From Hyaloperonospora brassicae (Eukaryota; Oomycota; Peronosporomycetes; Peronosporales; Peronosporaceae): a DNA stretch of 64,000 nt. The notes below the pieces were generated by a model. It had not been told where the DNA came from and made no database searches. It was given only the letters and a program-made list of their open reading frames with translations. Below, piece after piece: positions 1 to 3,697 of the stretch. The stretch is taken from the NCBI GenBank assembly GCA_947650285.1, contig CANTFL010001425.1:1-64000 (forward strand), written 5' to 3'. Both the position numbers and the translations under genes were made by a program. Position 1 is the stretch's first letter; the number at the start of each line of letters is the position of its first letter.

Positions 1-2
1 TC

Positions 3-1214
3 GTTGCGACACTGAGAGCCAGTGTTACGTCGTCAAGCTTACTTGACGACATACAAAAGGCATCCGCAGAAGATCTTTATCTTCTGCGATTAATGGATCA
101 TCTGTTGAATCTATCCAGTAAATCATTGAAATATTTACCGGCTTTGTACCGATCCTCCTCGGATCGGTATACGACACGCAACGGGTTGCTATATTATACA
201 GCTGTTGCCGGCGACACTCCTCGTGTCGTCGTCCCCGCTCATCATGATTTGCGTTTACGCATCATGTACGAGTGTCACGATGCCCCAACAGGTGGTCATC
301 GTGGGAGAGAAAAGACTTACCTCACGGTAAGTCGTGACTTTTACTGGCCACGCCAGTATCAGTTTGTACGCAAGTACATACGTGCTTACGAGGTTTGTCA
401 ACGGGTGAAGCCTAGTCCTTCATCCCGTGCACCATTGCAACATCTGCCTGTTCCGGCAGAGTGCTGGCGGTCCGTGTCCATGGACTTCGTCTTCGGTTTT
501 CCCGAAGACGCTCACAAGAATAATGGTATTCTTGTTTTTGTTGACCGGTTCAGCAAGATGGTACATCTTGCTGCCGTACCCGAGTCGATCAAGGCTCAAG
601 GTTGTGCTCGTGTATTTCTCGACACGGTCTTTAGACTCCACGGTTTACCCCGTGAACTCGTATCCGACCGTGACCCTCTATTCACGGCGGAATTTTGGCA
701 ATCCGTGTTCCGTTCTCTCGGAACACGGTTGACGATGTCCACATCTAACCATCCCGAAACAGATGGTCATACAGAACGTACGAACCGTGTCCTCGAAGAA
801 ATTCTTCGTGGATACATCCACTCCTTTTCGAGTTGGAGTATGTTCTTGCCGATGGTTGAATTTGCCATCAACGACTCCGTGCATACCTCAACACAGCACA
901 CACCGTTGTACGTGAATGGCTTACGCCATCCACGTGTGCCCGCCCTTCTAGAGTGTGACTCTTGGATAAGGGGGGAGGGACTCGCTCGAGCAAAAACCGT
1001 TTTGGCTCTTGCTCATCATGTGTCGACGCTAACGTCGTCACGTATGATGCCGATGTCGATCAAGTCGGCATCGATGAAGAAGATCATCTCAATAATAGCG
1101 AAGACGCTATTATTGATTCGGATGATGATGACGATGCTGGTATATTCAGCATCGTCAACGATTATGTCAGCGAGGAAGAAGACAACCTCGCTGAAGAAGA
1201 GAACAATCTCTTAG
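3..1214 (+). pseudogene. Ty3/gypsy integrase, zinc-binding and catalytic core (copy 1)
   Basis: This frame is open from the window edge. It encodes the integrase that would insert element DNA into the host chromosome. An HHCC-type zinc module is visible (GGHRGREKTYL, then CEVCQRVKP-like residues with VCQRVKP). The rve core follows: the first catalytic Asp is in SMDFVFGFPEDA, the second in SDRDPLFTAEFW, and the Glu in HPETDGHTERTNRVLEE, so the DDE triad is intact. Past about position 960 the frame stays open to 1214, but the homologous protein continues in the -1 frame. The segment is therefore a C-terminally displaced integrase rather than a clean gene. Many of its codons form the arms of perfect hairpins (for example 551-573 and 703-728). 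Confidence 0.88.
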
Positions 1215-2011
1215 CAGTGCGCACGAAGCGCACTGCCAGACAAAACAAAGAGTCAGCAGAGAACTTCCTGCTGACTCGAGAAGCGGTAGTCCGTTTCGTT
1301 CAGGACTCCATCGCAAATGCGGTGGACCGTCAGAAACGGAACGCAGACAAGAATGGAAGAGCAAATGTTCTTTCATTTAAGGTTAACGACCTAGTACTAC
1401 TGTCAACGGTAAACCTACCTGGACATGCAGTCACTAGTGTCGGCAGTAGTAAACTACTGCCGAAATACATTGGGCCATTTCGAGTGTTGCATCGCAAGGG
1501 CAATGCATACACACTCGAATTGCCACGTAAGATTCGCACGCATCCTACGTTTTACGTGGGGAGGCTCAGGCCGTACTGTCAGGACAAGCCTTGTTCTCCC
1601 GATGAAGATAGCCCCCACGTTCAAGAACATCCATCAAGTTCTTGCTTTCGCGCTCCAGACGATCCGTCTAGTCGCAGAGATATGATACCTCGGAGCTCAA
1701 CCGAGATATCTACCCGCGAGCTGTCGCCAGCTCGCCGCAAAGGAGCGGACATCCCGCTCGACCTGAAGCTGCGCCGTGGCATAATCGGCGCGATCTCTCG
1801 CCCGATCAGCCTCGTGACCCTTGCGGTTCTTCCGCACGGTATCGGTCAAAGTGTAGCGTCGGTCGCGCTCGTGCTTCAAGTCATCGCGCAATTCATCGAT
1901 TGCGCGATCCATCTCGTAAGGGTCGAGATGGTGAGCCGAATCATCTGGAGGAGGTCTTTCATCCTCCACCACAACCTTTGGTGGATGCTCACGGTGATAA
2001 ACGCTTTCTAG
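959..2011 (+). pseudogene. Integrase C-terminal part: acidic linker and GPY/F module (copy 1)
   Basis: This is the continuation of the integrase in the -1 frame relative to the core. The frame opens at 959, just after a TGA at 956-958. It begins with a linker of about 60 residues rich in Asp and Glu (EEDHLNNSEDAIIDSDDDDD and a second run EEEDNLAEEENN). The usual gypsy C-terminus follows: DSIANAVDRQKRNADK, then the GPY/F motif in LLPKYIGPFRVLHRKGNAY and ELPRKIRTHPTFYVG. After about 1600 the sense frame stays open but no longer resembles integrase, and it overlaps an antisense ORF. The acidic linker recurs in the second copy. The GPY/F module is thought to aid multimerisation and DNA binding. 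Confidence 0.8.
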
Positions 2012-2392
2012 TGGAGCGTATCTTGAATCACCGTGACGATTCAGGATCAAGGACGAGATACCTCGTCCAGAGGCGGGGGTATCCACCCTCTTGGAACAGC
2101 TGGGAGTCCCGCTCTCAGCTGTTGATGGATGTTGAAGGTCTCGTCCGCCAGTATGACGAGACCAATCCGATGAGTCCTGTGGCCCATCGGTAAACACGCG
2201 CCCTAGGCGCTTGTAGACGGATTGCAACTTTGCAATCGCGTCACGCATCTCCTCCGAGAGATGTGCCCTTCCCCAGGGCGAATTTAGGGAGTACACATCC
2301 CTATGTGCACGCTGCGAATTGTCAACACAACTCGCACAACAGTCTCCCCATGTGAGGCAAGGAATGCCTGCCTCACTCGATAAACAATGCAA
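1697..2392 (-). CDS. Antisense ORF, charged coiled-coil part (copy 1)
   Basis: This is a 231-codon open frame on the strand opposite to pol. Its C-terminal 70 residues are highly charged and helical in pattern (MDRAIDELRDDLKHERDRR, then RKNRKGHEADRARDRADY and LQVERDVRSF). The same segment is found, also antisense to pol, in the second copy at 50493-50786 (MDRAIVESREDLDHDRDRR), with most positions identical or similar. The matching sense frames do not form one shared protein in this linker, which favours the antisense reading as the coding one. I do not recognise the family. It probably forms the C-terminal half of one protein with the ORF at 2537-3172; stops between 2392 and 2537 interrupt it. 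The ATG at 2392 is therefore an arbitrary start. Confidence 0.55.
   Translation of the reverse strand: MHCLSSEAGIPCLTWGDCCASCVDNSQRAHRDVYSLNSPWGRAHLSEEMRDAIAKLQSVYKRLGRVFTDGPQDSSDWSRHTGGRDLQHPSTAESGTPSCSKRVDTPASGRGISSLILNRHGDSRYAPLESVYHREHPPKVVVEDERPPPDDSAHHLDPYEMDRAIDELRDDLKHERDRRYTLTDTVRKNRKGHEADRARDRADYATAQLQVERDVRSFAASWRQLAGRYLG
1900..2193 (+). pseudogene. Chromodomain of the integrase tail (copy 1)
   Basis: A recognisable chromodomain lies at about 1990-2160: FLVERILNHRDDSGSRTRYL, then VQRRGYPPSWNSWE, then a C-terminal helix with LLMDVEGLVRQYDE. Chromodomains at the end of gypsy integrases bind modified histone tails and guide insertion into heterochromatin. The domain sits in a different frame from the GPY/F part (frame of 1900 versus 959), so copy 1 has at least one more frameshift. 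The first in-frame Met at 1900 is not an authentic start. The opposite strand is also open here (1697-2392). Confidence 0.82.
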
Positions 2393-2536
2393 CCGGTTTC
2401 TAGCACCGGTTGGCGTTCGCCGTTCGAACCTGAGGCGTGTTGCCTCAAGTTTCTTGAGCCACCCTTCTCGTCCAAAATTCTTTACGTTTTAGACGAATGC
2501 GTTCCACGCAGCCAAAAGCGATGTTTTGTCACGCTT

Positions 2537-3172
2537 TTAGTTGCTGTTGTACCATCGATGTCTAAGAAATACATCGAGATAAAAATCTTCTTCAGCGCGA
2601 AAGTTCTTCGCGCTGGAACTCAAGCCGTGAAGCTCGGTTGCATCGAATAAGGGTATTCGATGGTGTTGGCCTGTCTCGTGAGACAGGCTATTGATGAGTT
2701 GTTCGGGCATACGCCACGGCTTCAACTCATCACGCTTCACAGTGGTATCTTTGTCGGTACCACGGCTTCCAGATTGACGACGGCTCGCGCCATCGTCATC
2801 ACGCTCGTGCGAAGACGCACGAGCCGGCGGTGGTGAAGAATAGAACTCACCACCCTGATCATCATCATCATCACTGCCAAACAGACTGTGATGCAAATCA
2901 CGATTCCGTTCGTTCGGCAGTGGTCTTGGCAAATACTGAGGCATCGCCGGTGAGCGAGACGCCTCTGGAGCATTGCCCGAGTCAGACACGTCTGACTCGC
3001 CAGAGTAGATGGCCTCTACATCAGGGTCATCGTGCGCACGCGGTGTGATACCGCGTGCACCTGCAGCACCTGTTGCTGCAGGAGAAGAAGGGGCGGCAGA
3101 CGATTCGTCGTCTGCCGCAGAGGCTGGCACAGCATTAGGCTGTGTGGGTCTTGAGTCACCTCGCATAGACAT
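2537..3172 (-). CDS. Antisense ORF, disordered N-terminal part (copy 1)
   Basis: This is a 211-codon open frame on the strand opposite to pol, starting 134 bp inside the 3' LTR. It is rich in Ser, Ala, Pro, Asp and Arg (probably disordered), with an acidic stretch GSDDDDDQGGEF. Two motifs are shared with the second copy: IYSGESDVSDSG (second copy LYSGESDTSSDS) and, near the end, EEDFYLDVFLRHRW (second copy EHDFCIDVFFRHR). The same order, strand and distance from the 3' LTR in two diverged copies argue for a real accessory gene of the element rather than chance. No known domain is recognised. Transcription would have to start in or near the 3' LTR and run against pol. The start ATG at 3172 is the first in frame and plausible. 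Confidence 0.6.
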   Translation of the reverse strand: MSMRGDSRPTQPNAVPASAADDESSAAPSSPAATGAAGARGITPRAHDDPDVEAIYSGESDVSDSGNAPEASRSPAMPQYLPRPLPNERNRDLHHSLFGSDDDDDQGGEFYSSPPPARASSHERDDDGASRRQSGSRGTDKDTTVKRDELKPWRMPEQLINSLSHETGQHHRIPLFDATELHGLSSSAKNFRAEEDFYLDVFLRHRWYNSN

Positions 3173-3290
3173 GTTAACTATGCGAGGTCAAGCGGAAAGT
3201 GAATGGAACGGACCGAACAAGTGCTCCCTGTCCCAATGGTGGCCAACGGGTGGCCTCCATGTTTTTGATAGTCACACGGTGACTATCAGT

Positions 3291-3305
3291 TAAGGGGGAG
3301 GGTGA
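3291..3305 (+). promoter_or_regulatory. Polypurine tract (copy 1)
   Basis: TAAGGGGGAGGGTGA lies immediately before the TG of the 3' LTR, the position and composition expected of the plus-strand primer for reverse transcription. The second copy has the matching tract at 48967-48985 on the minus strand. Confidence 0.8.
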
Positions 3306-3697
3306 TGTAACGGGGCAGCCCGTTACATGAAATTGTCACTATAAGGAAAGTGACAATAAAGAATATTACGATGGATATTCTTTAAAACAATATCACCAAA
3401 GTGGTGATATTGAAGGGTCGACCAAAGGGGCTGTTCATTGGTTGATATCGTGATGATATCAACCCACCAATCGCCGCAAGACGCGCGCAATGAGTGGTGA
3501 CGAGACGTCACCATACATGCAGTTATATTAGTATAATTGAATTAAGTCAAACGAAGAGACAGTAGAATAAAGACTTGATTATATTAATATAAAAGTTCTG
3601 CTTTTACCCTACCTACGCTTCCTCGCTTGCCACGTGTACGTTTGTCGGGGCACTCAAAACCCTTGCGTTAAGATACGCAAGGGTGTGCCCCGTTACA
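3306..3697 (+). repeat. Family-1 3' LTR (copy 1)
   Basis: A 392-bp LTR runs from TG to CA. The 5' boundary is fixed by the polypurine tract and the 3' boundary by the CCCCGTTACA terminus, which also ends the LTRs of the second copy (compare by reverse complement). It opens with a 22-nt perfect inverted repeat (9-bp arms TGTAACGGG and CCCGTTACA). Further perfect hairpins occur inside, for example 3388-3412 with 10-bp arms. The 5' LTR is outside the window, so no target duplication can be tested. Confidence 0.85.

Follow-up and report, generated by a model that had tools for sequence, protein, structure and literature searches.

Genome-scale ordered RNA structure (GORS), as described for positive-strand RNA viruses (PMC7642675), consists of hundreds of largely unbranched stem-loops running through coding sequence, with duplexes kept to at most 14 bp, reduced diversity at paired sites and folding well above that of dinucleotide shuffles. 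Template switching, as inferred in RNA genes (rRNA; PMC8794818), yields hairpins, loop inversions and stem repair, with perfect stems and compensatory changes in which G-U intermediates are common. Here we describe a retrotransposon family that shares features with both systems, identified in a stretch of 64,000 nucleotides of Hyaloperonospora brassicae DNA (assembly GCA_947650285.1, contig CANTFL010001425.1, positions 1 to 64,000 of the forward strand; hereafter the window). The family has the long terminal repeats (LTRs), gag, reverse transcriptase (RT)-RNase H-integrase order and chromodomain of the oomycete Ty3/gypsy chromoviruses, among which it is set apart by a conserved antisense gene between pol and the 3' LTR. 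Plant Tat/Ogre-type gypsy elements, from another host group, carry an antisense open reading frame (ORF) before the 3' LTR in the same position and orientation, and we know of no hairpin arrays in them.

The element is saturated with short, perfect hairpins. Like GORS, these are largely unbranched stem-loops that pass through coding sequence, but whereas the pairings of GORS-bearing viral genomes are poorly conserved in position, here they occur in a retrotransposon, in stems that are perfect, position-conserved and apparently strand-symmetric. Perfect stems, compensatory changes and loop inversions are shared with the template-switch hairpins of PMC8794818, from which the element differs in that its hairpins stand wall to wall, with no detectable G-U preference and with purifying selection on their arms. 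A title- and abstract-level search of the open-access literature returned no description of a hairpin-saturated retroelement, and we regard the array, carried by an element of known type, as previously undescribed. The comparisons reported below make it probable that selection maintains the array, acting on the folding of both strands, with template switching helping to supply stems and shielding from silencing as the most likely benefit.

Hairpin density in the window

Hairpins were defined as perfect inverted repeats with arms of at least 8 bp and loops of 2-12 nt, and their numbers were compared with those in 200 dinucleotide shuffles. The copy of the element at the start of the window (copy 1, 1-3697) contains 40 perfect hairpins with arms of 8-12 bp, against a shuffle mean of 0.57 (standard deviation 0.75, maximum 3), and a second copy (copy 2, 48484-56784) contains 48, where shuffles give 1.06 on average and 4 at most. 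A further gypsy element in the window, 13.9 kb long, holds 6 (shuffle mean 1.9, maximum 6), which is slightly high. The remaining 38 kb hold 9; its three stretches of 15.9, 15.0 and 7.2 kb contain 3, 5 and 1, against shuffle means of 2.6, 2.8 and 1.0. Codon-preserving shuffles (300 per ORF) were applied to copies from elsewhere in the genome. In the young copy L009, the pol ORF contains 32 hairpins (shuffle mean 0.69, maximum 5), the integrase/chromo ORF 13 (0.50, maximum 4) and the antisense ORF 23 (0.59, maximum 4), while the pol ORF of copy L003 contains 32 (0.63, maximum 3). Neither type of shuffle reached the density of the element, nor was it equalled in the 13.9-kb element or in host sequence. 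The shuffles rule out chance, base composition and codon use as its source, and the hairpin count and folding of the 13.9-kb element, which lacks such saturation, rule out a general trait of gypsy elements here.

A first-pass annotation of the window had listed 14 perfect inverted repeats in the first 1462 bp. All 14 are present and perfect, ten of them at exactly the coordinates given (29-50, 65-88, 147-169, 314-333, 488-510, 551-573, 703-728, 1089-1116, 1214-1236 and 1250-1277) and four extending one base further on each side than claimed (514-535, 1129-1157, 1167-1194 and 1440-1463); an additional hairpin, with a loop of 11 nt, lies at 1046-1072. The hairpins it had placed further along were likewise recovered (2593-2615, 2641-2662, 2669-2688, 3388-3412 and 3306-3327, the last in fact spanning 3305-3328). 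Its chance estimate of 0.2 hairpins per 1.46 kb agrees with the shuffles, and its statement that the pattern ignores strand, frame and domain is borne out by the ORF-by-ORF shuffles and by the regional densities given below.

The hairpins are borne by an element in which gag and pol are flanked by LTRs and RT-RNase H precedes integrase (as seen in the LTRs of copy 2 and in the Pfam domain order of L009 and copy 2), with a chromodomain at the integrase end (PF00385 Chromo, 1e-13, in L009 2460-3689), a chromovirus feature assigned by domain match. By these domain assignments it is a Ty3/gypsy LTR retrotransposon with features of the chromodomain group. Its parts in the window are the following.

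1..3697, plus strand: copy 1, truncated at position 1 of the window and comprising the last part of pol, the region of the antisense gene and the 3' LTR
3..1214, plus strand: end of the pol ORF, with integrase zinc-binding and core domains (Pfam Integrase_H2C2 5e-19, rve 3e-9)
962..2011, plus strand: overlapping ORF with a Tf2-1-like SH3 domain (Pfam); the equivalent ORF of L009 also matches Chromo
1089..1116, plus strand: perfect hairpin with 12-bp arms, of which copy 2 (51299-51326) shares the outer 11 bp but not the loop
1563..3172, minus strand: antisense gene region, low end approximate, extent taken from homology with L009 3064-4671
1697-2392 and 2537-3172, minus strand: antisense ORFs of copy 1, in the region that is open over 535 aa in L009 and L003
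3305..3684, plus strand: hairpins of the 3' LTR region; in L054 the set at 3332-3684 is found again close to the element's 5' end (134-483)
48484..56784, minus strand: copy 2, an older full-length member of the same family, 76% identical to copy 1 over 3-2410
48484..48969, minus strand: 3' LTR of copy 2, with 95.9% identity to its 5' LTR
51497..52684, minus strand: RNase H-integrase ORF of copy 2 (Pfam RT_RNaseH, Integrase_H2C2, rve)
53099..53593, minus strand: RT fragment of copy 2 (Pfam RVT_1 2e-12)
55091..56047, minus strand: gag of copy 2 (Pfam Retrotrans_gag 1e-13)
56312..56784, minus strand: 5' LTR of copy 2

Distribution and positional conservation across the genome

A DNA search of the 100.56-Mb genome (898 contigs) returned 1891 candidates, 40 of which were scored. 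All 40, the window itself included, cover nearly all of window positions 3-2410 at 89-100% identity (89-94% for the other 39). The 29 loci L002-L030 each carry 54-70 perfect hairpins per 5.4 kb, stretches from the 5' part of 20 copies carry 33-41 each (short flanks included in both cases), and seven further copies of the antisense region (L069-L075) carry 5-9 per kb. When 82 hairpin sites were followed over 30 copies, 64 were perfect in at least 27 of them, 14 in at most 8, and 4 lay in flanks. Between L009 and L031, which represent two subfamilies about 15% apart, 21 of 28 L009 hairpins are matched by a perfect hairpin at the same place. Two of ten arbitrary 4-kb genome stretches proved to be family members, with 29 and 6 hairpins, and the other eight contained 0, 0, 0, 1, 0, 2, 1 and 5. 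These searches show that the family is abundant and that its hairpins are real, family-wide and conserved in position.

The young copy, read as two neighbouring parts of contig C824 (L054 and L009) that were analysed separately, has 102 hairpins in 7.76 kb, or about 13 per kb, with regional densities of 11.7 per kb in LTR/gag, 14.2 in protease (PR)/RT, 11.8 from RT to integrase, 14.3 in the antisense gene and 15.4 in the LTR. At 17-68 of L054, just upstream of the 5' LTR, inverted copies of two LTR-start hairpins are found, as if a second element end abutted head to head. Relatives of pol among the 120 matches listed include Peronospora effusa at 84% and many from Phytophthora and Globisporangium at about 53-68%; scans of viral contigs and genome contigs using the pol protein returned no relative. 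L009 gave no match to any structured-RNA family at the Rfam gathering threshold. Loops and closing pairs look diverse, although no formal search was made for a shared loop or arm motif of the packaging-signal type.

Stem length and predicted folding

Stems in the young copy measure 8 bp in 32 cases, 9 bp in 36, 10 bp in 25, 11 bp in 6 and 12 bp in 3, and none is longer; 4-bp arms are near the shuffled level (226 vs 207). The ceiling of 12 bp compares with 14 bp in GORS (PMC7642675). Loop length peaks at 4-5 nt, with mild over-representation of 15-60-nt loops (19 vs 4.7) but no excess of 61-120-nt loops (5 vs 6.7).

RNA folding energy was predicted in 240-nt windows with 20 dinucleotide shuffles each. 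The predicted excess over shuffles on the sense and antisense strands, respectively, is 51.5 and 47.6% in L054 and 47.9 and 50.6% in L009, and it amounts to 33% in the old copy 2. As controls, the initial 6 kb of the 13.9-kb gypsy element give 3%, and 5 kb of 56785-64000 give 1.5 and -0.9%. The element hence has the GORS trait of folding well above shuffles, with a mean excess of about 50% here against genome means of 15% for SARS-CoV-2 and 23.4% for the highest recorded in PMC7642675, values that were obtained in 350-nt windows and are only roughly comparable. The same source gives a local peak above 50% in one SARS-CoV-2 gene.

Conservation of hairpin arms and decay after insertion

Variants were compared over 30 copies for the 3' part of the element and 19 copies for the 5' part (L051 and the first 420 columns dropped). 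The 1870 arm sites have 42 shared variants and the 5296 sites outside have 345 (odds ratio 0.34, p=5e-13). Mean diversity in arms and outside is 0.012 vs 0.027 in the 3' part and 0.007 vs 0.016 in the 5' part, and the deficit extends to the fourfold sites of pol (0.015 vs 0.054) and to 3' non-coding/LTR sequence (0.0089 vs 0.0387). In most site classes loops are at least as variable as sequence outside the hairpins. Circular shifts of the arm positions matched the observed low diversity in 0/1707, 0/1709, 0/1705 and 5/1209 cases with four different reference copies, the reference being excluded each time.

A different pattern is found after insertion. In eight old copies (copy 2 and L032-L038), changes private to one copy occur at codon positions 1, 2 and 3 with frequencies of 0.075, 0.064 and 0.067, a similarity that indicates near-neutral change. 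These private changes are not rarer in arms (172/2052, or 0.084) than outside (377/5721, or 0.066), and the values are 0.081 vs 0.067 and 0.080 vs 0.066 when arms are defined in two other ways. Mutational protection or better repair of the arms in host DNA is ruled out by this decay. Since arms decay like the rest in old copies, it is during the replication cycle that selection keeps them. Together with the covariation described next, the comparison of copies shows purifying and compensatory selection on the arms that operates during replication of the elements and ceases once they have inserted.

Covariation and apparent strand symmetry

Between L009 and L031, changed arm pairs comprise 8 double Watson-Crick and 16 single changes, whereas among flanking pairs both members changed in 7 and a single member in 66. 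Over five combinations of reference and copy set, double Watson-Crick changes number 65, 18, 19, 53 and 46; controls in which partners were slid by 1-3 positions give 6-34, 0-7, 2-8, 8-25 and 6-23, and are exceeded in every case. Double changes were counted between copies. One stem exists in three paired states (GTCT/AGAC, GCCT/AGGC and GCTT/AAGC). Many one-sided changes are expected, and seen, because decayed copies are common in these sets.

The polarity of the constraint can be addressed through mismatches. If only the sense RNA had to fold, G-T would be tolerated and A-C would not. Shared genotypes at 933 arm pairs include 9 GT, 16 AC, 8 other mismatches and 5 other Watson-Crick pairs; pairs just outside stems include 16 GT, 18 AC and 68 other, and stems with one mismatch 12 GT, 13 AC and 10 other. 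The deficit in arms is about 2.4-fold for transitions and about 5-fold for transversions (Fisher p=0.08 for the contrast), a pattern predicted by two-strand selection, since a transition breaks the hairpin of one strand and leaves a wobble pair on the other. The constraint looks strand-symmetric, with no detectable G-U bias, and the similar tolerance of G-T and A-C suggests that pairing matters on both strands and not only in genomic RNA.

The alternative that fares best, although we consider it unlikely, is that selection acts on the sense strand only, for a compact structured genomic RNA (for packaging, stability or shielding), with antisense pairing as a by-product. It would account for the folding excess of about 50% and for sense-strand loops that are purine-rich outside the antisense gene, and the unbranched local stem-loops with short duplexes resemble those of PMC7642675. 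It does not account for the lack of preference for G-U over A-C in polymorphism, beside stems or inside imperfect stems; in rRNA, by comparison, 78.5% of two-step compensations involved G-U pairs (PMC8794818).

Template switching

Four distinct loop inversions were identified between intact arms of 10-11 bp (CTTT/AAAG, TTT/AAA, AA/TT and TTCG/CGAA), two of them represented in the window.

65..88, plus strand: hairpin with inverted loop, CTTT being the reverse complement of the AAAG loop of L010
3093..3118, plus strand: hairpin with inverted loop, TTCG being the reverse complement of CGAA in the other 29 copies

Exact reverse-complement pairs account for 3 of 9 4-nt allele pairs in hairpins (two being one event in overlapping alignments) and 3 of 1700 elsewhere, and for 1 of 3 3-nt allele pairs in hairpins and 32 of 2686 elsewhere. 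Further candidates (GTAA/TTAC, ACGA/TCGT, CTC/GAG, GGG/CCC and some of 2 nt) failed a stricter rule and were left uncounted. These inversions point to hairpin formation during copying of the element.

It is improbable that the array is purely mutational in origin, that is, that template switches of the RT in near-palindromes perfect and maintain them without any benefit. The four exact inversions speak for such a process, and hairpins and inverted loops are known to arise by template switching (PMC8794818). Acting as sole cause, as we argue without simulation, it would predict normal divergence of arms and mostly double changes, but shared arm variants are only one third as frequent, arm diversity is low, and shared pair genotypes include 33 mismatched against 5 alternative Watson-Crick pairs. 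Nor does it give any reason for the 12-bp ceiling.

About as improbable in our estimate is selection at the DNA level, on cruciforms or hairpins in cDNA or integrated DNA that would serve integration, chromatin or plus-strand priming. The similar tolerance of G-T and A-C is what it would predict, and the loop inversions suggest that hairpins form during copying; against it stand the absence of constraint after insertion and the size of the hairpins, arms of 8-12 bp with loops of 4-6 nt being short for cruciforms. Chance, base composition, codon use or an assembly artefact can be dismissed as practically impossible, given dozens of copies, most of them on separate contigs, and the hairpins of the two family members met among the ten arbitrary stretches.

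The antisense gene

Between pol and the LTR, the antisense strand of L009 and L003 has a 535-aa ORF that overlaps the end of pol. Its predicted protein has 8 database homologues, two at 48% identity over 95-96% of its length and others from H. arabidopsidis and Peronospora matthiolae. One homologue is named 'Core-binding (CB) domain-containing' by its source. The protein has an acidic, serine-rich N-terminus and a coiled coil at its C-terminus, with a conserved region in the centre; Pfam searches gave weak matches, none above cut-off, and the structure model is poor (mean predicted local distance difference test score 48), being confident only in the coiled coil. Conservation of the protein implies an antisense mRNA, and hence the double-strand problem that underlies the mechanism proposed below.

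Other features of the window

The 13.9-kb gypsy element (19600-33470) has RNase H and RT domains and LTRs of about 1.28 kb at 97.7% identity, some 200 bp of which recur at 35873-36073 (71% identity). An inverted pair of about 410 bp (41221-41633 and 44926-45336) shows 97% identity at a separation of about 3.3 kb, and a dispersed repeat family occurs in both orientations at 76-87% identity (3925-5043, 12168-12959 and 35872-37032). A host gene at 58378-60279 matches a protein of Hyaloperonospora arabidopsidis at 90% identity and proteins of Phytophthora at about 73-78%.

Proposed mechanism and significance

The explanation that we favour, and consider probable on the sequence comparisons, combines selection for two-strand folding, a supply of stems by template switching and shielding from silencing. 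Over its whole length, the element would have come to consist of short, local hairpins with perfect Watson-Crick pairing. Pairing would be needed on both strands, either because sense genomic RNA and antisense mRNA must fold or because genomic RNA and minus-strand cDNA must do so. New stems would be partly supplied or perfected by template switching during copying. Strong local folding would prevent sense and antisense transcripts from annealing into a long duplex and would hide them from RNA silencing, and the 12-bp ceiling would leave each stem too short for Dicer. Shielding is, we infer, the most likely benefit. More tentatively, and with considerable doubt, we suggest that the element is selected for local self-complementarity on both strands together, with strict Watson-Crick pairing in every stem so that the two polarities can fold, and that this is the price it pays for its antisense gene in a host capable of RNA silencing.

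Several observations weigh against this explanation. At the other third positions of pol, arms are hardly less diverse than the rest (0.022 vs 0.025), and at integrase positions 1 and 2 they are more diverse (0.012 vs 0.006). Private changes in old copies are slightly commoner in arms, for which we have no explanation. The GT and AC counts are small, and sense-strand loops contain more A than the sequence outside them (0.336 vs 0.245) and more A than T (p=0.016), which hints that the sense RNA matters most. Young-copy loops are also skewed to G over C on that strand (p=0.008), and the A-richness is clearest in gag, PR/RT and the LTR and absent in the antisense gene. Hairpins in gag are as dense as elsewhere, yet that half has no antisense ORF longer than 152 aa. 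The selection tests rest on one genome, and shielding is argued by analogy.

Of the two causes put forward in the first-pass annotation, selection for structure is upheld by the covariation of arm pairs and by arm conservation, which is seen where lineages replicate (fourfold pol sites and the non-coding 3' part included) but not in old copies. Its formulation as a highly structured genomic RNA is too narrow, since mispairs show no detectable preference for G-T over A-C, and folding is equally strong on the two strands. The other cause, template switching, has left its fingerprints in the inversions but fails as sole cause.

If the two-strand reading is true, the array would represent a new class of genome-wide nucleic-acid code overlying protein coding, about twice as strong as the strongest published whole-genome viral RNA structure that we found (PMC7642675). 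The family offers an extreme natural multi-copy case of genome-wide structure selection, in which old, decaying copies provide a built-in neutral control. It makes testable whether mass structure shields RNA from silencing, how coding sequence bears some 100 hairpins while partly under two coding constraints, and what share template switching during reverse transcription may have in the evolution of structure.

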